Assembly (NCBI GenBank): GCA_021796835.1
Contig: JAKABO010000002.1
Span: 60,659 to 124,658 of the forward strand
Source of the DNA: Pseudomonadota bacterium
GTDB taxonomy: Bacteria; Pseudomonadota; Gammaproteobacteria; Burkholderiales; Ferrovaceae
Direction of reading: 5' to 3'
Length of the DNA stretch: 64,000 nucleotides
Position numbers and translations under genes: made by a program. The notes below the pieces were generated by a model, which did no database searches, had not been told where the DNA came from, and was given only the letters and a program-made list of their open reading frames with translations. Of the stretch, positions 25,613 through 42,640 are shown piece after piece (the stretch's first letter is position 1; every line of letters starts with the position of its first letter).

Positions 25613-26575
25613 TCAACTCAGCAAGGGGCGCAAGGTTTCCGACAGCATGGCCGCGTCAAACTTCGCAACGTAATAGTCTACGCCGACCCGGTTACCCATG
25701 GCTCGATTGGCCTGCGACGAGAGCGATGAATGCATGACAACGGGAATTTCGTCAAAACGTTTGTCCGCTTTCAATTGTTGCGTCAACACATACCCATCCA
25801 TTTCAGGCATCTCCGCATCCACCAGAATCACCTGAATCTGGTTGCGCAGGGGATAATTTCCATGCGAAGCGCTGTCCGCCAAGCCGCACAACCGCTCCCA
25901 CGCCTCTCGTCCGTTATTGGCACGCAAATGCTTGACTCCCATTTTATCCAGCAATTCCGCTATTGTCTTGCGTGCAACGGAAGAATCATCTGCAAAAAAG
26001 ACGCACTTTTCATGGCCACTTTCTATTTTCGGAACATTACCTACCACATTTTCCCCAAAAGCCGAGGCCAATACCTGCTCCACGTCGACGATGGAGATCA
26101 GTTCTCCCGTGGGAAGTTCGGTAATGGCATTGATGAGGTTGTCACCACTTCCGGAGAAGTCGTTCTCTGGTGCGCGGACGGTACTCCAGTCGACGCGGAT
26201 GATTCGGTCCACGCCGGCGACCAGAAACCCCAGCGTGTGGCGGCTGTATTCGGTGACCAGCATGGTGGTGCGCTCGTGCGCGCGGGCGTTTTCCAACTTC
26301 ATGAAACTGACCAGATCCAGAACGGGGATGATGTGTCCGCGCAGGCTGACGATGCCGGAAACGCCAGCGGGCATGTTGGGCGTCCGGGTGACCTTCATGG
26401 CGTGGGTGACTTCGCGCACCTTGAACACATTGATGCCAAATTTTTCTTCCGTCCCCAGAGAAAACAGCAAGATCTCCATCTTGTTGGATCCTGCCAGATT
26501 GGTCCGCGCATTCACGGCATCCAGCAGTTCATCTCCCACCGGGGAAAATGTTTGGGGCTGATTCTGAAAAGTCAT
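25613..26575 (-). CDS. cheV: Chemotaxis coupling protein CheV (CheW + REC)
   Basis: N-term CheW-like domain, C-term REC (FFADDSSVARK, VDAEMPEMDGY). Confidence 0.92.
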   Translation of the reverse strand: MTFQNQPQTFSPVGDELLDAVNARTNLAGSNKMEILLFSLGTEEKFGINVFKVREVTHAMKVTRTPNMPAGVSGIVSLRGHIIPVLDLVSFMKLENARAHERTTMLVTEYSRHTLGFLVAGVDRIIRVDWSTVRAPENDFSGSGDNLINAITELPTGELISIVDVEQVLASAFGENVVGNVPKIESGHEKCVFFADDSSVARKTIAELLDKMGVKHLRANNGREAWERLCGLADSASHGNYPLRNQIQVILVDAEMPEMDGYVLTQQLKADKRFDEIPVVMHSSLSSQANRAMGNRVGVDYYVAKFDAAMLSETLRPLLS

Positions 26576-27531
26576 GGGGCCTCCGCACCTTTCAGCAGGC
26601 GAGTCAGTGTGCTCGCCAAACGATTGGGTTCAAATTTCGAGATATATTCGTCCACCCCCACGGTCTTGCCCAATTGCTGGTTGGAACTGCCGGACAACGA
26701 GGAATGCATGAGCACCGGGATGCCTGCGAACCGTTTGTCTTCCTTGATCTTTCGGGTCAGCATGTAGCCATCCATCTCGGGCATTTCCACATCGGTCAGG
26801 ATGAGTTGAAGCGTATCCTTCAGCGGGGTGTGGGCACTTTCGGCAACCTCTGCCAGATGACGCAACTCATCCCATGCCTGGCGACCATTCACCGCCGAAA
26901 TGCCCTGTACGCCCATGGCTTCCAGGGTACGGGCAATCTGTTTGCGGGCGACAGAGGAATCATCGGCATAGAACACCCGCCGATTGTTCAGGCCGAGAGG
27001 CCTCACGTTGCGGTAGATGGATTCGTCCTCGCCGATCTGAGCGGTTTCGGCCAGTACGCGTTCCACATCCAGCATCATGACCAGTCGTCCATCCGGCAGT
27101 TCCGTCACGGCGGTGACCAGTCCTCCCAGAGGGGTATTCACCATTTCGGGAGGGACCCGCATGGCCGACCAGTCGAGACGCAGGATGGTATCCACCGATT
27201 CCACCAGAAATCCCTGGGTGTGACCGTTGTATTCCGTGATGATCGTGATGTCCGGAACGGTTTCGAGTGGAATGCCGATGTACTTGGCCAGTCCGATGAT
27301 GGGAATCAGGATGCCGCGCAGGCTGACCATTCCCTCCACGGCTTCGGGCATTTCCGGAGCGCGCGTGATGGGTGGGGTGCGCAGTACCTCGCGTACCTTG
27401 AAGACATTGATGCCATAAGTTTCGCGGCGTTCGGTTCGGGGGTTGATCCCCAACGTGAACATCAGAATTTCCAACTTGTTGGTTCCCGCCAACTTGGTTC
27501 GGGCATCGATTTTGGAAAGTAGTTCAGACAT
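26572..27531 (-). CDS. cheV: Chemotaxis coupling protein CheV, second tandem paralog
   Basis: Same architecture as 25613-26575; FYADDSSVARK, TDVEMPEMDGY; 4-bp overlap. Confidence 0.92.
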   Translation of the reverse strand: MSELLSKIDARTKLAGTNKLEILMFTLGINPRTERRETYGINVFKVREVLRTPPITRAPEMPEAVEGMVSLRGILIPIIGLAKYIGIPLETVPDITIITEYNGHTQGFLVESVDTILRLDWSAMRVPPEMVNTPLGGLVTAVTELPDGRLVMMLDVERVLAETAQIGEDESIYRNVRPLGLNNRRVFYADDSSVARKQIARTLEAMGVQGISAVNGRQAWDELRHLAEVAESAHTPLKDTLQLILTDVEMPEMDGYMLTRKIKEDKRFAGIPVLMHSSLSGSSNQQLGKTVGVDEYISKFEPNRLASTLTRLLKGAEAP

Positions 27532-27611
27532 GGATCATCCTTGGTTCACTGTCTTTGAGCATGGCCGTTCTTCATGATAAGGGATAGCGACTTTTTTGCC
27601 GGAAACTTTAA

Positions 27612-28592
27612 TCAGCGGGTCGGGCTGACGGGCAGCGGGGGAGCCGGCGCGGCGGGAGAGGGAGGTGCCGGTGGAACACTGTTTTCCACCTGAATGACAC
27701 CGCCGTCATGGCGTGCCGTATCCTCGGCCCGTTTGTTCATGACAATGATGCTGATGCGCCGATTGGTCGGATCGTTGGGATCGTTTTTATTCAGCAGGAC
27801 GGCCGACGCCAGTCCGACGACGCGCAGGACCTTGTCGGGGTCCATGCCCCCCGTGATCAGTTCACGCCGGGAGGCGTTGGCTCGGTCGGCAGAGAGGTCC
27901 CAATTGTTGTATCCACCTTTGGCTCCTTTCATGTCCACGGAGTAGGGGCGCGCATCCGTATGTCCGGACAAACTGATAAAATTGGGGACATCATTGAGGC
28001 TTTTACCGATTTCACGGAGGATATCGCGGGTGTAGGGTTCCAGTTGGGCGCTTCCCACCCGGAACATGGGACGATTCTGGCGATCCACGATCTGAATGCG
28101 CAATCCCTCGCTGGTGAGGTCCAGAAGGATCTGGTCCTTGAATTTCTCCAGGTTGGGGTTATGGGCGATGACCCCTTCGATCCTTGTCTTCAATTCCTTG
28201 AGTTTGGCCAATTCATCGGCCTGCTCCTTACGTTTGAAGTCGGTATCGGATGTCTTGAGACTGATGATTTTTTTCCTGGAAGGAAGGTCTCCCCTCTTGA
28301 CTTGTCCCTCGCTACGTGACAGGTCTTTCCCGCCCCCCTTGATAACGCTGGAACTGTTTCCGCTGCCGGATCCCCCTTCAAGGGCAATCTTCAGGGGGGT
28401 TTTGAAATAATCCTCGATCCCTTGCAGATCTCCCCGAGTGGTGGAGCCCAGTAGCCACATCAGGAGAAAGAACGCCATCATGGCCGTCACAAAATCGGCA
28501 TAGGCGATTTTCCAGGCTCCTCCGTGGTGCCCGCCACCCGCAACCTTTTTGATGCGTTTGACGACGATGGGGCGTTTGTCTTCGGCGGTCAT
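27612..28592 (-). CDS. motB: Flagellar motor stator MotB
   Basis: KIAYADFVTAMMAFFLLMWLL plug/TM; OmpA-like LSGHTDARPY. Confidence 0.95.
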   Translation of the reverse strand: MTAEDKRPIVVKRIKKVAGGGHHGGAWKIAYADFVTAMMAFFLLMWLLGSTTRGDLQGIEDYFKTPLKIALEGGSGSGNSSSVIKGGGKDLSRSEGQVKRGDLPSRKKIISLKTSDTDFKRKEQADELAKLKELKTRIEGVIAHNPNLEKFKDQILLDLTSEGLRIQIVDRQNRPMFRVGSAQLEPYTRDILREIGKSLNDVPNFISLSGHTDARPYSVDMKGAKGGYNNWDLSADRANASRRELITGGMDPDKVLRVVGLASAVLLNKNDPNDPTNRRISIIVMNKRAEDTARHDGGVIQVENSVPPAPPSPAAPAPPLPVSPTR

Positions 28593-28610: not shown

Positions 28611-29465
28611 TCAGCGTTTCTGTTTGACGTGGGTTTCCAACTCGGCAAAGCCGGGGCGCTCGGGTGTATTGAGTACCTTGCGTCCGAATTCCACCGCCAT
28701 GGCAGGCGCATAACCGTTGAGACTGGCCAGCAAGGTTACCTTGATGGTTTGAAACATCTTGGTGGATTCGTCGGCCTTTTGTTCCAGCAGTCCCCCCAGC
28801 GGTCCCACAAACCCATAAGCCAGCAGGATCCCCAGGAAGGTTCCGACCAGGGCGTGCGCGATGAGCATGCCCAGTTCGGCAGGGGGGGCGCCCACCGATT
28901 CCATGGTGTGCACCACACCCATCACGGCGGCCACGATCCCGAAAGCAGGGAGTCCGTCACCGAGTTTGGAGATGACGTGGGCGGGTACCAGTGCCTCATG
29001 GTGATGAGTGTCAATTTCCACATCCATCAGATTTTCGATCTCCATGGCGTTCAGGTTTCCACTGACCATGATGCGCAGATAATCCGTGATGAATTCGATC
29101 ACATGGTGGTCACCCAGAATTTTTGGATATTTGGAAAAGAGGGCGCTTTGCTCGGGGTTTTCTACATCCCCTTCCACGGCCATCAGCCCTTCCTTGCGGA
29201 TTTTTCCCAGGATCTCGTAGAGCAGGGCCATCAACTCCATATAGGTTTCTTTGTTGTATTTTGCTCCCTTGAATACCGAGGGGAGGGCTTTAGATGTGGC
29301 TTTGACGGCCGTTCCCGTATTGCCGACGAACAAGGCGCCGGAGGCGGCGCCTCCAATCATGAGCAGTTCAACCGGTTGGAAGAGGGCGCCCAAATGCCCT
29401 CCTCCTATGGCAAACCCCCCGAACACGGCGCCCAGGACGACGACATAGCCGATGATGACAAACAT
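28611..29465 (-). CDS. motA: Flagellar motor stator MotA
   Basis: MFVIIGYVVVLGAVFGGFA, GDGLPAFGIVAAVMGVVHTM, LGILLAYGFVGPL. Confidence 0.95.
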   Translation of the reverse strand: MFVIIGYVVVLGAVFGGFAIGGGHLGALFQPVELLMIGGAASGALFVGNTGTAVKATSKALPSVFKGAKYNKETYMELMALLYEILGKIRKEGLMAVEGDVENPEQSALFSKYPKILGDHHVIEFITDYLRIMVSGNLNAMEIENLMDVEIDTHHHEALVPAHVISKLGDGLPAFGIVAAVMGVVHTMESVGAPPAELGMLIAHALVGTFLGILLAYGFVGPLGGLLEQKADESTKMFQTIKVTLLASLNGYAPAMAVEFGRKVLNTPERPGFAELETHVKQKR

Positions 29466-29556: not shown

Positions 29557-29583
29557 TTTTCGGCTAATTTTTTTTGAACTTTA
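29557..29583 (-). promoter_or_regulatory. Sigma-28 (FliA) promoter of motAB-che operon: TAAAGTTC-N11-GCCGAAAA
   Basis: Read on minus strand; exact 11-bp spacer; -35 embedded in the flhC stop codon. Confidence 0.75.
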
Positions 29584-30135
29584 CAGGGAAGGTTCGGAAG
29601 AGACGGGTTTTTGGCTGAGTTTCTTGGTTTTTCCTGCGCGGGATGGAGGGGCGCAGATGCCGCAGACATAATCGGCAGTCAGGTCGTGGGTATGGACCAC
29701 GAACTCCCCGTTGCAACGGGTACACGGGGTTGTTTTCAGCATGCCGGCAGCACAGAAGCGAAGTAAAAACCAGGCGCGGGTGACGCTGAGAATGTTTTCT
29801 TCCTTGCTGATGACATTTTGCTCGAGATAGAGCTGATAACTCTTGATGAGCAATTCAAGGGGGGGGAGGTCGATGTTCTTTTCGAGGTAGCGGTAAATCC
29901 CGAGGAACAGGGATGCGTGGATATTCGGCTGCCAGGTGATGAACCAGTCGGTGGAATAGGGCAACATGCCCTTGGAAGGAGAATGCCCGGCGACTTCCCG
30001 ATACAGGCGCAACAGCCGCTCGCGGCTCAGATGGGTCTCTTCCTGCAACAACTGAAGACGAGCCCCCAACTCAATCAACTCGACGGCCCACTGGACCTCC
30101 TGGGCTTCGGCAACGATGCTGCGCGGAGCAACCAA
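29581..30135 (-). CDS. flhC: Flagellar master transcriptional activator FlhC
   Basis: 184 aa; QWAVELIELGARLQLLQEET, CxxC…CxxC zinc ligands (CTRCNG, CGIC). Confidence 0.92.
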   Translation of the reverse strand: MVAPRSIVAEAQEVQWAVELIELGARLQLLQEETHLSRERLLRLYREVAGHSPSKGMLPYSTDWFITWQPNIHASLFLGIYRYLEKNIDLPPLELLIKSYQLYLEQNVISKEENILSVTRAWFLLRFCAAGMLKTTPCTRCNGEFVVHTHDLTADYVCGICAPPSRAGKTKKLSQKPVSSEPSL

Positions 30136-30141
30136 GGGAGG

Positions 30142-30462
30142 TCAGATCGCCAGTTGTTCGGCCGGTTGGCCGGCCATGAGGATGGCTGCATGGGGTTGGG
30201 CCATGAGCCGGTCTTTGGTGTGGTCGGTGATCATGTTGAGCAGCAGGTTCTCATCGAAACGCAAACGGCACACCAGCATATTCGATGCGGCCATTTTAAT
30301 CAACTGGGCAGGGGTCAGACTGGCGATCAGATCGGCCATTTCCGCGTTGATCCCCAGTCGGAACAGGGCGGCGGCCATGTCCTGATTGATCATGTTCTGA
30401 GCCAGCATCAGATAGGAAAGGTTGGTGTCCTTGATCTCTGCGTGTAATTGGGTGGGGTTCAC
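30142..30462 (-). CDS. flhD: Flagellar master transcriptional activator FlhD
   Basis: EIKDTNLSYLMLAQNMINQDMAAALFRLGI, GTG start at 30462 with GGAGAA SD. Confidence 0.9.
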   Translation of the reverse strand: MNPTQLHAEIKDTNLSYLMLAQNMINQDMAAALFRLGINAEMADLIASLTPAQLIKMAASNMLVCRLRFDENLLLNMITDHTKDRLMAQPHAAILMAGQPAEQLAI

Positions 30463-30597
30463 GGAAATTCTCCTTAGTGTTGGACTGCGCCGGTGACCAC
30501 GGGTCACGATGGGCCCATTGTGCCGAACGAAAAAAGGAGAATAAATCAGTAATTTGATGAATTTGTCGTAGGAATAAAACCTATGGGCGACACAAAC

Positions 30598-30630
30598 ACC
30601 CGCTTTGCCATCGGGGCAAAAAAAGCGGGT
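30598..30630 (-). promoter_or_regulatory. Leader hairpin between the sigma-28 promoter and flhD: ACCCGC…GCGGGT with inner TTTGCC/GGCAAA
   Basis: Inverted repeat read directly with 4-nt A bulge. Confidence 0.5.
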
Positions 30631-30688
30631 AAAATAAAAAATCAATATTTTCAGTCGATTGCGGTGTTCTGCTTCGTCTATGAACAGG

Positions 30689-30715
30689 TTATCGGCAGAC
30701 TTTTGGAAAACTTTA
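30689..30715 (-). promoter_or_regulatory. Perfect-consensus sigma-28 promoter toward flhDC: TAAAGTTT-TCCAAAAGTCT-GCCGATAA
   Basis: Both hexamer regions match the FliA consensus exactly with N11 spacer; ~227 bp upstream of the flhD start. Confidence 0.85.
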
Positions 30716-30892
30716 GGGTTTTTTTAAAAAATAAAAAAATTTTTTCACCCTCAAAATAAAGGCAAAAAGTGTCTCTCTCTTGCACCGTCCGGAGAAATGA
30801 CGGGGTAAATCCCCGGTTGTTCCCGCCTTTGAGGTGGGCTTCCCCTCTGGATAATGGCGTGTCGATGTGTCCCCTAATCTCAGAGAGTTCCT

Positions 30893-32041
30893 ATGGACAG
30901 CGAGAGTGATCTCGAAAAAACCGAACAACCTTCGCAGCGACGTCTCGATCAGGCGCACGAAGAAGGTCAGGTCGCCCGTTCCCGCGAACTGTCCACCTTC
31001 ATGGCGTTGTTGGCGGGTGGCGGCGGGTTGTGGTTCATGGGGGGGCATCTGCGTCAATCGTTGTTGGGGTTGGTTCGCCAGGGACTGAGTTTCGATGCGG
31101 GGGTGGCCACGGACCCCGTACGCATGATGGAACGGTTTTCACGATTGTCGCTGGAGATCGTGGGCGTGTTTTTGCCCTTTTTGGGTTTGCTCCTGATGAC
31201 GGCCATTTTTTCTCCCCTGCTCCTGAATGGGTGGTTGTTCAGTTTCAAACCGTTGCAACCAAATTTTTCCCGCCTGGACCCCCTGGCCGGTATCGGACGC
31301 ATGTTTTCTGCCCAGGGGGGGGTGGAATTGGTGAAAAGCATTGCCAAGGCGGGAGTGGTGGGTGGGGCAGGGGTCTGGGCGGTGTGGCACTATCTGGATC
31401 AGACCCTGATGCTCCCCGCGTTGTCCATTCCTGCCGCCACCTTGCAGATGGGGACCCTGGTGGGACAGGCCTTTTTGGCCATGTTGGCAGGGATGATGCT
31501 GGTGGCCGCGGTGGATGTGCCTTTTCAGTTGTGGGAGCACAATCGTCAACTTCGCATGACGAAGGATGAAATTCGCCAGGAGGCCAAGGAAACCGAAGGG
31601 GATCCCCAGATCAAGGGCAAGATCCGGAGTATGCAGCGTGAACGGGCGCGTCGGCGCATGATGGCTCAGGTCCCGAGTGCGGACGTGGTGGTGACCAATC
31701 CTACCCACTATGCGGTGGCCCTGCGCTACCAGGAGGGCGTCATGCGCGCCCCCATCGTGGTGGCCAAAGGGGTCCATCAGGTGGCGGAACGCATTCGCGC
31801 GCTGGCGGCCACACATCGCATTCCCGTGGTGGAGGCCCCTGCATTGGCACGGGCATTACATGCCCATACCGAGTTGGAACATCCCGTACCAGAGGCGCTC
31901 TATCTTGCAGTCGCCGAGATATTGGCCTATGCCTACCAGTTACAACGACAGCGCAAGGAAGGAGGCGATGTTCCTCCTCCGCCTCAAAACCTTCCTGTTC
32001 CCAAGGAACTTGATCCCGAAAGCCGGGTGAGCACATCATGA
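30893..32041 (+). CDS. flhB: Flagellar export protein FlhB
   Basis: DLEKTEQPSQRRLDQAHEEGQVARSREL, NPTH autocleavage motif (VVVTNPTHYAVALRY). Confidence 0.95.
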   Translation: MDSESDLEKTEQPSQRRLDQAHEEGQVARSRELSTFMALLAGGGGLWFMGGHLRQSLLGLVRQGLSFDAGVATDPVRMMERFSRLSLEIVGVFLPFLGLLLMTAIFSPLLLNGWLFSFKPLQPNFSRLDPLAGIGRMFSAQGGVELVKSIAKAGVVGGAGVWAVWHYLDQTLMLPALSIPAATLQMGTLVGQAFLAMLAGMMLVAAVDVPFQLWEHNRQLRMTKDEIRQEAKETEGDPQIKGKIRSMQRERARRRMMAQVPSADVVVTNPTHYAVALRYQEGVMRAPIVVAKGVHQVAERIRALAATHRIPVVEAPALARALHAHTELEHPVPEALYLAVAEILAYAYQLQRQRKEGGDVPPPPQNLPVPKELDPESRVSTS

Positions 32042-35225: not shown

Positions 35226-36084
35226 CCCCGGAGCGTGCGACCAGGCCAGCGGATTGCGGCGCCTGATTTCCCCTCCGCACTGTCGGATTCTTACCGTTCT
35301 GGGCAGTCGTCCGGGGGCGGGCGCCTCCCTGGTGGTGGCGGGGCTGGCCTGCATCGGCGATCACGCTTCGCCCATGTTGGTGCTGGATGAACACCGGGGA
35401 CCCCGTCATTTGGGCCGGATCCTCAACCTTCGCTTGCGCTACGACGCACGACAGGTCCTGGCGGGACATCTCGACTGGGCTCAGGCCCTGGTATCGATCG
35501 GGCCGCAGGTGGATTATCTCAACCTGGAGCGGGTCAAGGCAACGCCCGCAGCCGTGCCCTGGTCAGGGCTGGTTGCCTTGGCGCACCAACGTACCCATGT
35601 GCTGGTGGACAGTGCCTCACTGGAGTTGGCCCGTCGCATCCGGGGCCATCACGAAAATACCCGCGCTTCCGTTCTATGGGTGATTGACGAAGCCGATTCA
35701 TGGCCGGCCTGCCAGAAACGCCTGAGTCAATTGTTGTCCCATTCGCCGACGGCAGTGGGAGGGGTCATCAACCGGGCAACGAATGGGGACAGGGTGCTTG
35801 AATGGCAAGGACGCTGCCGTGCCCTGGTCCAGTCCATCGGGCTGGAGTACCGTGATTTTGGTTTCCTGCCCCTTGCTCAAAGGCCTGCTCATGACACACA
35901 ATGGCGTTTTAACACGATGGGAGGGTTGCCCTCGGTATCCCTGTCCCAATCCTTGATGCGCCTCAGGACTCAGATCTTGTCCTGGGACCCGGCGGTACGA
36001 AACCAGAGGACCGCCCAGAGGAATGAAAGCGACGGATTTTCATGGGGGGAGAGGAAAGCGCGGGTGGCTTGGGGAGGGAGGTAA
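35218..36084 (+). CDS. FlhG/FleN/MinD-like protein with degenerate P-loop
   Basis: Position between flhF and fliA; ILTVLGSRPGAGASLVVAGLACIGDHASPMLVLDE resembles a MinD N-terminus but lacks Walker-A Lys. Confidence 0.6.
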   Translation: MPDPGACDQASGLRRLISPPHCRILTVLGSRPGAGASLVVAGLACIGDHASPMLVLDEHRGPRHLGRILNLRLRYDARQVLAGHLDWAQALVSIGPQVDYLNLERVKATPAAVPWSGLVALAHQRTHVLVDSASLELARRIRGHHENTRASVLWVIDEADSWPACQKRLSQLLSHSPTAVGGVINRATNGDRVLEWQGRCRALVQSIGLEYRDFGFLPLAQRPAHDTQWRFNTMGGLPSVSLSQSLMRLRTQILSWDPAVRNQRTAQRNESDGFSWGERKARVAWGGR

Positions 36085-36086
36085 GG

Positions 36087-36803
36087 ATGTATACACCCGC
36101 AGGTCTGGAAGACAAGGAAGATTGTCTGAAAACCTTTGCGCCTCTGGTCAAGCGTATTGCGCATCACCTGATGACCCGATTGCCAGGCAGCGTGGAGGTG
36201 GATGATCTGATTCAGGCGGGAATGATGGGTTTGCTGGAGGCTTCGACGCGCTATGACGAGTTGCGCGGCGCACAGTTCGAGACCTATGCCGGGCAACGCA
36301 TTCGGGGAGCCATGCTGGACGAACTGCGTCAGTCGGACTGGATGCCGCGTAATTTGCGGCGTGACACCAAACGGATCGAACAGGCGATCAGCCGTCTCCA
36401 GCAACGGCAAGGCAAGACTCCCAGTGAATCCGAGGTGGCCAGCGAACTGGAGATGAGTCTGGCCGATTACCAGGCATTGCTGTTTGAAGCGCGGGGCGCG
36501 CAGTTGCTGTACTACGAAGATTTTCGTGAACAGGACGGTGAAGAATCCTTCTTTGATCGCCATGAGTTCGGGCATGAACTCGAACCCCTGGCATTGCTGG
36601 GAAATCAACGTTTTCAGACGGCGTTGGTGGAGGCCATCGAAGAGTTGCCGGAACGTGAACGGTTGATGATGGGATTGCATTACGAACAGGAGATGAACTT
36701 GAAGGAAATTGGCGAAGTCCTGGGGGTTAGCGAGTCGCGCGTCAGTCAGATTCATACCCAGGCAGTGACGCGTCTGCGCAGCCGTCTCAAGAGTCATCAC
36801 TGA
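36087..36803 (+). CDS. fliA: RNA polymerase sigma factor FliA (sigma-28)
   Basis: DDLIQAGMMGLLEA, GAMLDELRQSDW, LKEIGEVLGVSESRVSQIHTQAVTRLRSRL. Confidence 0.95.
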   Translation: MYTPAGLEDKEDCLKTFAPLVKRIAHHLMTRLPGSVEVDDLIQAGMMGLLEASTRYDELRGAQFETYAGQRIRGAMLDELRQSDWMPRNLRRDTKRIEQAISRLQQRQGKTPSESEVASELEMSLADYQALLFEARGAQLLYYEDFREQDGEESFFDRHEFGHELEPLALLGNQRFQTALVEAIEELPERERLMMGLHYEQEMNLKEIGEVLGVSESRVSQIHTQAVTRLRSRLKSHH

Positions 36804-38321: not shown

Positions 38322-38771
38322 TCAACCCGAGGCCAGGGGGCGTCCCGACCCTGTGGCGGGCGCGAGAGTCTGGCCATCCGGGCCATAAAGTGTGGCTTTC
38401 TGGGCGGCTTGCTGAAGAATCGTCAGGGCTTGCTGATTGTGACGCAGGCGAATCTGAATCAGTTCCCCATTGGTCCGGTTGGTGGTTTCGGCTTTCTGGG
38501 TATTGGCCAGAAGGGCATTCAGGCGGTCGATATTGTGTCCAACCGGTGGCGTCCCCAGTTCACGACGGTAGGTGGTCAGGTCGATCAACCGTTGGGCAAG
38601 CCGGTTTTTCTTTTCGGCCAGGGGAATGAGCGGGAGGGTCTCCCCGGACATCAACAACCCTTGCTCTTCGTCCAGAAGGGCCTGAAATTGTGCCAGAGCC
38701 AGAATTTCTTCATCCAGAGCCGCTTCCCAGGCTGAGATGGAAGAACTGGACATCGAGGTCTCAGTGCCCAC
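38322..38771 (-). CDS. flgN: Flagellar chaperone FlgN
   Basis: 149 aa, helical, adjacent to flgM; LLDEEQGLLMSGETLPLIPLAEKKNRLAQRL. Confidence 0.85.
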   Translation of the reverse strand: MGTETSMSSSSISAWEAALDEEILALAQFQALLDEEQGLLMSGETLPLIPLAEKKNRLAQRLIDLTTYRRELGTPPVGHNIDRLNALLANTQKAETTNRTNGELIQIRLRHNQQALTILQQAAQKATLYGPDGQTLAPATGSGRPLASG

Positions 38772-39108
38772 TCGCCTGAATCAAACTCTTGACCGAAGCA
38801 ATGAGGCCAGAGGCTACGGCGTGGGCATTGACCTGAAAGCGCCCTTCACTGATGGCCTGGCGTACCGCAGCGACCTTGCTGAGGTCGACGCTGGAGGTCG
38901 CGGCAATGGTTGCCTTCAGTTGGGTTGCGGTTCCGCCGATATGAACGGTGGTTCCCGAAGCGGCCCCTGAAGCGGCGGTACCGGCTTCACTGGTCGTACG
39001 GGCCCCCTGCGGTGATGAGGAAGAAGAGGTTGAAGCGGAAGAAGTTCGACCGGAACCGCCCTGGATCGGGGTGGGTGGGGCGGACTTGACGGTTTTGTCT
39101 ATTTTCAC
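38761..39108 (-). CDS. flgM: Anti-sigma-28 factor FlgM
   Basis: MKIDKTVKSAPPTPI start, C-term VDLSKVAAVRQAISEGRFQVNAHAVASGLIAS. Confidence 0.92.
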   Translation of the reverse strand: MKIDKTVKSAPPTPIQGGSGRTSSASTSSSSSPQGARTTSEAGTAASGAASGTTVHIGGTATQLKATIAATSSVDLSKVAAVRQAISEGRFQVNAHAVASGLIASVKSLIQASGH

Positions 39109-39141
39109 GGGAGTCTCCCAGTAAGGCTGCTCATGGCTGGG

Positions 39142-39168
39142 TTATCGGCAACCCAGAGCGATACTTTA
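39142..39168 (-). promoter_or_regulatory. Sigma-28 promoter of flgMN: TAAAGTAT-N11-GCCGATAA
   Basis: Read on minus strand; exact -10, near-exact -35, N11 spacer, ~34 bp upstream of flgM. Confidence 0.82.
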
Positions 39169-39330
39169 GGGCGAATTCTGATGCTCGAACCGACTTTTTA
39201 TGGATTCTACACGACTTTTCAACGGATTGAGCGGAAAAACTGCTTCATTTCTCCCCTTCGGTATGGGGGGCTGGGCCGCATACTAGGGCGACTCTGGGGA
39301 GCGGATTTTCTGAGGCGTGAAAGGAGCGGC

Positions 39331-40101
39331 ATGGGTGTCATTGCGGTATTCAATCAGAAGGGAGGCGTAGGAAAGACCACGACCTGCCTCAATCTGGCGG
39401 CTGCCTGGGTGCGTGCCGGCGCGAATCCGTTGTTGCTCGACCTCGACCCTCAAAGCCATCTCAGTCTGGCCAGTGGGGTGGTGGCACCACCCGGGGCAGG
39501 GATGGCTGCGTTTTTCCAACACCAAACGCCCCTCTTGCGCTTGCTCGAAAGGACGCGTTCGGGTTGGGACTTGATCCCCGCCACCGCAGATCTTTCCAAA
39601 ATCGATGCGCTCAAGGGAGGGGATCCCAAGGCGGCTACGCTCTTGAGCCGGGGCATGAATGCCGTAGTACGTGAACGTTCACCCATCCTGATGGATTGTT
39701 GTCCCAATCTGGGGGTGCTGACCTTGAATGCGTTGCTGGCAGCGGATTACGTCCTGATTCCGGTGGCCGCCGACTATTTGTCCCTGCAGGGGGTCTATCG
39801 GATCGAGTCCGCTCTGGATGTTCTGGAAAAACGTCTCAAACGGACCTACCCGCGACGAATCGTGGTAACCCGATTCAACCCGCGCCGCAGACTGGCATTC
39901 GAGGTCGATCGCCAATTGCGTGAACGCTACGGAGAGGATGTCTGCAAAACCAGAATTGCGGAAAACGTCGCATTGGCCACCAGTCCTTCCGTCGGTCAGG
40001 ATGTCTTTCGTTATGCCCCGCACAGCGGGGGCGCGTCAGATTACGCAGCGTTGGCAAAAGAATTGTCAGAGGCGGGGTTTTTGCGGGCGGTCCGAAAGTA
40101 A
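39331..40101 (+). CDS. ParA/Soj-family ATPase
   Basis: MGVIAVFNQKGGVGKTTTCLNLAAAW deviant Walker A, LLLDLDPQSHLSLA; start at ATG 39331 after AGGAG. Confidence 0.88.
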   Translation: MGVIAVFNQKGGVGKTTTCLNLAAAWVRAGANPLLLDLDPQSHLSLASGVVAPPGAGMAAFFQHQTPLLRLLERTRSGWDLIPATADLSKIDALKGGDPKAATLLSRGMNAVVRERSPILMDCCPNLGVLTLNALLAADYVLIPVAADYLSLQGVYRIESALDVLEKRLKRTYPRRIVVTRFNPRRRLAFEVDRQLRERYGEDVCKTRIAENVALATSPSVGQDVFRYAPHSGGASDYAALAKELSEAGFLRAVRK

Positions 40102-40124
40102 TAAGCAGGAAAAAAAGGGGGGAG

Positions 40125-40877
40125 ATGATCATGAGCAGGGCACTTCAGAGACATTGGATTCAGGATGAGGCGTCACCAGACCTGGAAGAGGGGTTGGCGA
40201 CCATACGGGCTGCCCGGTCTCAGGTGGAAGCCGAAACCCATGCCTTTTTGGAAGAACAGGCCAAATTGCGCGCGGAAGCCGTTTTGCGGGCGGTTCCCGT
40301 GGATCAACTGGTACAGTCGCGCAACGGGGATCTGAAACGGCTGGAAGGAGAACGACAGCAGGCGGAACGGCTTGCCATCGAAACCATCGAACGGCGAATG
40401 GAAATAGCCCTGCGTGCCATCGAGGCCGATAATGCAAGGATTTTGGAAGAGGAACGGGCCACGGTCCTGGCAACGGAGCGTTTGCGTGCGGCACAGGAAG
40501 CCATGAGCACGGCACGGGCAAGACAGGAGGAGGAAGTTGCCCTGACGCTTCAGATACAGGCGCGCCAGAAGCAGGAGCAGAGTGCCCGGGAGGAAATGGA
40601 ACGGCGCATCGAAGCAGAACAGGAACTTCTGGAACGTGCCATGGAGAAACAAACCCTGGAAGCACGGTTGCACACCACCGTCAGGGCGGAAATCGACGAG
40701 ATGCAATGGGCCCAACGGGTGTTGGGCATGGAGGTACAACTGCGTCAGGTGCGGCGCAGAAATCGTGTACTGTGGGTCGCCTTGGGAAGCATGGTTTTCA
40801 TTGGGGTCATCGGGTATTGGCAGCCCTGGGGGGGAAATGTTTCTGTTGGGTTCAAAATCCTTTTCGGGTTGCACTGA
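40125..40877 (+). CDS. Coiled-coil protein with C-terminal transmembrane segment, unknown function
   Basis: Glu/Arg/Ala-rich heptad-like region followed by VLWVALGSMVFIGVIGYW. Confidence 0.6.
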   Translation: MIMSRALQRHWIQDEASPDLEEGLATIRAARSQVEAETHAFLEEQAKLRAEAVLRAVPVDQLVQSRNGDLKRLEGERQQAERLAIETIERRMEIALRAIEADNARILEEERATVLATERLRAAQEAMSTARARQEEEVALTLQIQARQKQEQSAREEMERRIEAEQELLERAMEKQTLEARLHTTVRAEIDEMQWAQRVLGMEVQLRQVRRRNRVLWVALGSMVFIGVIGYWQPWGGNVSVGFKILFGLH

Positions 40878-40934
40878 GCCAGAGTACAATTCCTTTCTGA
40901 TCTGACGCCAAAAACTGTCACGCAAGAGTACCTC

Positions 40935-42605
40935 ATGGCCTCTGAACCCACCCCCGCCGAATTGGCGGGTAAAACCCTGAAAGCCCTGGTGGCGCGAAAA
41001 CTGTCCCCCACCCCGGAGAATTACGTCCGTCTTTACGCGGAAATCAGTGGCAAGGAAACCTTTCGGCCCGCTGCACCCTCTTCCGGGATGAGCGCCGGTT
41101 CCTCGACGGTTCCCTCCTCGTCCTGGGCTGCCCTGATTCGCGACTTATTGCGACAAATCGATTTGCCTCACAAGGGGATGACTCTCTCCCGCAAAAAAGA
41201 AGGGGTGAATACCGTATTGACGCGCTTTGGCAATGATTCGGATCTCCTTTATGAAAAAATGCAGGGTTTGATACTGTCCTGGGGGCGGACAGGCGACACT
41301 TCAGGGGAAGTCGCTGAACCCGCCGAAAACAGCCCCCGAATTTCCTCCCCCGCTGTACCCGGTGCTTCTGCGCCGTCTGCGGCAAGTGGCATGGATACGG
41401 CCATCGATCCGGTGGTCATGACGCATTTGCGTGACTTATTGGCTCAGACGCTGGAAAGCAACAAATTGCTTCAACCGGAACTGGGCGAGGAGATCAATGC
41501 CCTGGTGACGCAGATCAGGGCGGCGGTCGATGGAGATCAGGTCACGGATGTCGCCAAGAAATTGCGCCATTTCTGGGTCAAAATGGAATTGCGGGGAGGG
41601 GACAAGGTAAAGATCCAGGAAGGTCTGCTCAGTCTGTTGCGTTTGCTGGTGGAGAATGTGGGTGAATTGGTGGCGGACGATAAATGGTTGCACGGGCAAA
41701 TTTCCATTTTGCGCGACATCATGGAACAACCCCTCGACAAACGAAGTATTGCCGATGCGGAAAAGAATTTGCGCGATGCCCTGGTCAAGCAGAGTTCCCT
41801 CAAGCAAAGTCTGGCGGACGCCAAGGATACCCTCAAGAGCCTGATGACCAGTTTTATCGACCGCATGGGTGAAATGACGGAAAGCACGGGGGATTACCAG
41901 GCCAAGATCGAAGGCTATAACCTCAAGATCGGGCTGGCCGACAATCTTACCGAGTTGGGACATATTCTGGAAGACCTGATGCAGGATACCCGAGTCATCC
42001 AGGCCAGTACCCTGCGCTCCCACGAAGAATTGGTCGTGGCGCGCCGGCAGGCGGTGGAAGCCCAGGAAAAAATTCGTCTGCTGGAGCAGGAACTGGAACA
42101 GGTCAGTGAATTGGTGCGTGAAGATCAGTTGACCGGGACTCTCAACCGGCGGGGGATGGAGGACGTGCTGCAGCGTGAGATCACCCGATCTGACCGCACG
42201 CAATCGCCGCTGTGCATTAGTTTGCTGGATATCGACAATTTCAAGTTGTTCAACGACCTTCTGGGACATAAAGCCGGGGATCTGGCCCTGATGCACGTGT
42301 CTGAAACCATCAAGAACGCTCTGCGCCCCACGGATGCGGTAGCCCGTTATGGCGGAGAAGAGTTTCTGCTGGTGCTTCCTGCCACACACCTCCATGAGGG
42401 GGTGGACATTCTGCAACGCCTGCAACGTTTGCTGACCCAGAAGTTGTTTGTCCATGATGGGGAGGAGATCATCATCACCTTCAGTGCCGGCGTGGCCATG
42501 CGGGGTTTGAATGAGACCGCTGAAGAAGTCATTGGGCGCGCCGATCAGGCCATGTATCAGGCCAAGGCTGCGGGCAAGAATCGTGTGGTCAAGGCGGAAT
42601 CATGA
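40935..42605 (+). CDS. Diguanylate cyclase (GGDEF)
   Basis: DQLTGTLNRRGMEDVL…YGGEEFLLVLP; RxxD I-site (RPTD) five residues upstream of GGEEF. Confidence 0.92.
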   Translation: MASEPTPAELAGKTLKALVARKLSPTPENYVRLYAEISGKETFRPAAPSSGMSAGSSTVPSSSWAALIRDLLRQIDLPHKGMTLSRKKEGVNTVLTRFGNDSDLLYEKMQGLILSWGRTGDTSGEVAEPAENSPRISSPAVPGASAPSAASGMDTAIDPVVMTHLRDLLAQTLESNKLLQPELGEEINALVTQIRAAVDGDQVTDVAKKLRHFWVKMELRGGDKVKIQEGLLSLLRLLVENVGELVADDKWLHGQISILRDIMEQPLDKRSIADAEKNLRDALVKQSSLKQSLADAKDTLKSLMTSFIDRMGEMTESTGDYQAKIEGYNLKIGLADNLTELGHILEDLMQDTRVIQASTLRSHEELVVARRQAVEAQEKIRLLEQELEQVSELVREDQLTGTLNRRGMEDVLQREITRSDRTQSPLCISLLDIDNFKLFNDLLGHKAGDLALMHVSETIKNALRPTDAVARYGGEEFLLVLPATHLHEGVDILQRLQRLLTQKLFVHDGEEIIITFSAGVAMRGLNETAEEVIGRADQAMYQAKAAGKNRVVKAES

Positions 42606-42613
42606 AATCTCCC

Positions 42614-42640
42614 TAAAGTTTCTCAGGGGTTGTCCGATAA
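42614..42640 (+). promoter_or_regulatory. Sigma-28 promoter of flagellin: TAAAGTTT-N11-TCCGATAA
   Basis: Perfect -35, 7/8 -10, exact N11 spacing, ~92 bp upstream of the flagellin ATG. Confidence 0.87.

Follow-up and report, generated by a model that had tools for sequence, protein, structure and literature searches.

The flagellar master operon flhDC of an iron-oxidising, Ferrovum-like bacterium is preceded by a sequence that matches the FliA (sigma-28) promoter consensus at 16 of 16 positions (TAAAGTTT-N11-GCCGATAA; minus strand, 30689-30715; in full, TAAAGTTTTCCAAAAGTCTGCCGATAA). We consider it likely that this is a working FliA promoter for flhDC, and probably for the motAB and che genes as well, so that feedback gated by assembly would go together with late transcription of the motor genes. 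The parts of this reading differ in strength: judged from its sequence and conservation, the promoter is very probably functional, whereas a physiologically relevant feedback of FliA on the master regulator is a more tentative proposal, since much of what is seen could equally come from late expression of the motor genes. In the textbook flagellar cascade flhDC comes first and FliA last. If the first step has a conserved FliA promoter, this cascade would become a loop with the checkpoint inside, which predicts commitment or bistable motility.

Table 1. Features of the flagellar locus in the window (the whole 64,000-nucleotide stretch of DNA analysed).
Feature	Position	Strand	Basis or remark
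CheV-like coupling protein gene, next after motB	26572-27531	-	
Sigma-28-like site ahead of the CheV-like gene	27584-27610	-	13/16
motB	27612-28592	-	Pfam and NCBIfam
motA	28611-29465	-	Pfam and NCBIfam
motA-proximal sigma-28-like site, overlapping the flhC stop	29557-29583	-	14/16; decayed or lost in many relatives
flhC, adjoining flhD	29581-30135	-	Pfam and NCBIfam
flhD, GTG start	30142-30462	-	Pfam and NCBIfam
Leader of the predicted sigma-28 transcript, ~220 nt	30463-30682	-	
CACAAT block, ~55 bp before flhD	30517-30522	-	conserved
Palindrome TAGG-N7-CCTA	30567-30585	.	family consensus TGTAGG-N7-CCTACA; many Burkholderiales have it conserved 5' of flhD
Stem-loop in the flhDC leader	30597-30631	-	same place, different sequence in several genera
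Predicted sigma-28 (FliA) promoter of flhDC, -10 box GCCGATAA after an 11-bp spacer	30689-30696	-	
Predicted sigma-28 (FliA) promoter of flhDC, -35 box TAAAGTTT	30708-30715	-	consensus match and conservation
CCC and A/T tract, immediately 5' of the -35 box	30716-30745	-	conserved in Ferrovaceae
flhB, first of the divergent flhB-flhA-flhF-flhG-fliA run	30893-32041	+	
fliA (sigma-28)	36042-36803	+	NF005413 and TIGR02479 above cut-off
flgM (anti-sigma-28)	38761-39108	-	PF04316 and TIGR03824
Sigma-28 site of flgM	39142-39168	-	15/16
Sigma-28 site of flagellin (fliC)	42614-42640	+	15/16

The closest named relatives of this genome are Ferrovum myxofaciens P3G and Ferrovum MAGs. The initial annotation had described an exact FliA consensus aimed at flhD from about 227 bp away, with no other gene between, and both points hold: the 16/16 match lies on the minus strand with none expected in shuffles, 227 bp separate the -10 box from the GTG start of flhD (30462), which has a good Shine-Dalgarno sequence, and no plausible ORF was found in the interval. 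No convincing candidate for an overlooked gene in this interval emerged in the window or in the 14 site-positive relatives, and flhB is ruled out as a target by its orientation. Transcription would be expected to start near 30682, and the conserved CCC and A/T tract could possibly act as an UP-like element.

The genome also encodes the cognate sigma factor and its antagonist. FliA shares 48% identity with its E. coli counterpart, with regions 2 and 4 well aligned and promoter-recognition regions of FliA type, and FlgM is encoded by a gene with a sigma-28 site of its own. Together with the 16/16 site and the conservation of its boxes, the intact fliA and flgM support one part of the earlier proposal, a FliA-type promoter that reads into flhDC; its other part, a feedback loop gated by FlgM export, is more tentative.

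Dinucleotide shuffles gave an expectation of zero exact matches in the window, and a genome-wide pattern search (2.15 Mb, 64 contigs) recovered the flhD site as the sole exact match. Allowing one mismatch, five sites were found, ahead of flhD, flgM, fliC, flgK and a chemoreceptor (MCP) gene; allowing two, there were seven, one of the two-mismatch sites preceding motA. The flhD site is thus, as first noticed, the best sigma-28 match, scoring 16/16 against 15/16 for both flagellin and flgM. Most of these sites have C-rich sequence ahead of TAAAG and a GATAAC context around the -10 box, so that the flhD site appears to belong to the sigma-28 set of this genome.

Conservation in close relatives, which had been put forward as a check, was found: among Ferrovaceae genomes with enough flank, 17 of 18 keep the site at 15-16/16 on the flhD strand, at a constant distance from the flhD start codon (-247 to -256). 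Across these 17, all eight columns of the -35 box and six of the eight of the -10 box are invariant, whereas the spacer has no invariant column (0/11) and the flanks have none more than 10 bp away from the site. Boxes that are kept while spacer and flanks drift are the pattern expected of a working promoter, and the alignment indicates that the boxes are under strong purifying selection. The one Ferrovaceae exception, G018, has unrelated upstream sequence; in G012, G017, and G022, which form a deeper genus within the family, matches near -220 reach 13-14/16.

In a survey of 68 regions upstream of flhD across Burkholderiales, a match of 14/16 or better on the strand of flhD turned up in 14, compared with 1/68 on the opposite strand, 0/68 for the reversed motif and 0/340 in shuffles. 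The site is present in some Gallionella-type relatives (-267 to -314), and most other families sampled are without it. When 48 flhDC loci of 5.7-7 kb each were scanned (560,080 strand positions), 20 sites of at least 14/16 were obtained. Of these, 19 precede flhD in the same orientation and the remaining one stands ahead of motA; the rest of the loci had none. Two or three sites in tandem are frequent in families f26, f35, and f8 (labels that are anonymous handles, not taxon names). Tandem sites are evenly spaced in L198 (genome G143), by 189 bp twice, and in L228 (genome G102), by ~113 and 118 bp, a regularity that suggests tandem duplication of the promoter. In E. coli K-12, O157:H7 Sakai and the other Enterobacterales sampled, no sigma-28 site precedes flhD (11/16 at most), and a consensus site shared with that order was accordingly rejected. 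With its 16/16 match, the operon described here departs from a strict class I flhDC of E. coli type, which has no sigma-28 consensus upstream of flhD.

The genes that follow flhDC, which the initial annotation missed, bear on what the promoter is kept for. Same-strand motAB and che genes follow in 40 of 48 loci, flhDC usually standing first in a flhDC-(methyltransferase)-motAB-che string, and the flhD site is often the sole sigma-28 site in such loci. Nine of the 17 Ferrovaceae that keep the flhD site score no more than 12/16 at motA, their site there having decayed or disappeared, and in several Ferrovum species and in other families motA is without its own sigma-28 site. The window showed no terminator separating flhC from motA. 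Late motor genes may therefore depend on the flhD site, which probably also serves as their late promoter; co-transcription of flhDC with motAB is further suggested by families that have the flhD site alone.

These observations would also suit a promoter that is kept only for the late expression of motAB and che, its leader poorly translated for FlhD and any feedback without meaning, an explanation we regard as unlikely. Within ~6 kb, the main sigma-28 sites of families f35, f26, and f8 precede flhD and motAB comes after, f16 genomes without motAB downstream have no sites of at least 14/16, and for Salmonella fliA the sigma-28 transcript is reported to be inert (Tanabe et al. 2011), which sets a precedent. 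However, eight Ferrovaceae retain both the flhD and the motA site, and any transcript that reaches motA must include flhDC with normal ribosome-binding sites. Genome G143, moreover, has three sigma-28 sites before flhD, followed by flhDC and one methyltransferase gene with no motAB within 5 kb, which favours a role for flhDC itself. The site is present in 13 of 40 loci with motAB adjacent and in 1 of 8 without, a difference that is not significant as sampled and does not decide between the readings.

The predicted leader folds into a stem-loop that keeps its place but not its sequence in several genera, with fold z-scores from -1.2 to -4.9. Its stem pairs across genera include CAGTTTTTTC/GAAAAAACTG, AGCAATTTTTCGGTT/AACCGAAAAATTGCT, and TACCCGCTTT/AAAGCGGGTG. 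Such a structured leader of 220 nt could itself be the main product, a sigma-28-dependent regulatory RNA rather than flhDC mRNA; E. coli has sigma-28-dependent, UTR-derived flagellar sRNAs (PMC10578931), and MotR is annotated at its flhC-motA junction. We hold this to be quite improbable, as no canonical terminator was found after the stem-loop, the long stem is clear in some genomes only, and leader sequence conservation is too low for a conserved target. The reading of 30689-30715 as a chance or decayed match without function was rejected and retains practically no weight, given the zero expectation in shuffles and a phylogenetic conservation that is restricted to the boxes, spans genera and holds a constant distance from flhD.

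Closer to flhD, the palindrome and the CACAAT block probably form a second, proximal control region that the initial annotation missed. The palindrome is conserved 110-190 bp before flhD across many Burkholderiales families (loci L017, L019-L023, L055, L061, L070, L071, L076-L079, and others, besides the window copy at 30567-30585); some families have it as TGTAAG-N7-CTTACA. This genome has no exact copy of TGTAGG-N7-CCTACA, and the copy at flhD is degenerate. The motif resembles a GacA/LuxR-type response-regulator box; it is a probable response-regulator binding site and a candidate for a class I control element of flhDC that these families have in common. The CACAAT block is a candidate -10 element of a proximal promoter, although a sigma-70 scan did not call it as a promoter. 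Since G018 lacks a sigma-28 site but has retained the CACAAT block and, in degenerate form, the palindrome, a proximal class I promoter at flhD is likely. Proximal region and sigma-28 site together fit a dual class I/class III operon.

Several neighbouring genes were noted alongside. In several families a gene between flhC and motA (3' of flhC in L104, L107-L109, L111, L114, L115, L118, and L122-L124) encodes a predicted membrane protein of ~265 aa that has a methyltransferase-like motif (IDIGSGLGGLVL); this gene stays with flhDC in G143 even without motAB. Between flgM and flagellin (39133-42605), genes for a ParA/BcsQ-like ATPase, a coiled-coil membrane protein and a GGDEF protein lie within the flagellar cluster in the direction of flagellin. 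A second, distant FlhD-like ORF (G000:C5:13151-13411), with ~26% identity to the FlhD of the window, is found elsewhere in the genome and has equivalents in nearly all Ferrovaceae.

With a FliA promoter serving flhDC and probably the motor genes, the operon would be transcribed early (class I) from the proximal promoter near flhD. Completion of the hook would lead to export of FlgM and release of FliA, and free FliA would renew flhDC transcription through the 220-nt leader; the extra FlhDC would amount to a positive feedback that acts on the master regulator and is gated by assembly, and the same transcript would give late (class III) expression of the motor genes. FlhDC would in turn activate flhB-fliA, a step assumed, like FlhDC activation of class II operons including fliA in Ferrovum generally, by analogy with E. 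coli and with Acidovorax, in which FlhDC boxes have been reported (PMC12888815); a search by eye for such boxes upstream of flhB or fliE/fliF gave no clear result. Feedback and late motor-gene expression are compatible, because a transcript that reaches motA carries flhDC. Feedback of FliA on flhDC is likely in this sense, yet it may not be the target of selection.

It is conceivable, though we propose it with reserve, that flhDC itself is class III in the Ferrovaceae, as well as in parts of several further Burkholderiales families, and is driven again at hook completion via FlgM export. If so, a hard-wired, assembly-gated positive feedback would replace the one-way cascade known from E. coli, whose layout would be one option among several, and in an iron-oxidising Ferrovum the completed hook could switch the flagellar starter genes back on. 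The loci fall into a compact comparative series, with the site ahead of flhD, ahead of motA, ahead of both genes or of neither, which offers a way to ask whether selection keeps the feedback or the late expression of motor genes.

The E. coli locus has the same flhDC-motAB string with a sigma-28 promoter of motA at the end of flhC, scoring 14/16 in Sakai, as does its counterpart in the window. Ferrovaceae and several other families, unlike E. coli, have their stronger or only sigma-28 site before flhD rather than motA. No prior report of FliA control of flhDC in betaproteobacteria was found in the open-access literature. In EHEC, FliA is reported to take part in flhDC transcription, with QseBC (Clarke & Sperandio 2005, Mol Microbiol 57:1734). 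Both systems thus link FliA to flhDC, but the best match in the uspC-flhD interval of O157:H7 Sakai is 11/16, near chance, compared with 16/16 here, at a site conserved across the family. Salmonella fliAZ, like flhDC here, is a regulator locus with early and sigma-28 promoters; there, however, the regulator is FliA itself, and the fliA sigma-28 transcript is reported to be translationally inert (Tanabe et al. 2011), which counts against the feedback reading, since a long sigma-28 leader can be inert. Salmonella flhDC is likewise subject to feedback through multiple promoters, including P1 and P5, but via the regulators FliZ-HilD and RflM (PMC3946378) and not through direct sigma-28 recognition. 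FliA control of flhDC had therefore been reported before, for EHEC, a precedent that the initial annotation missed.
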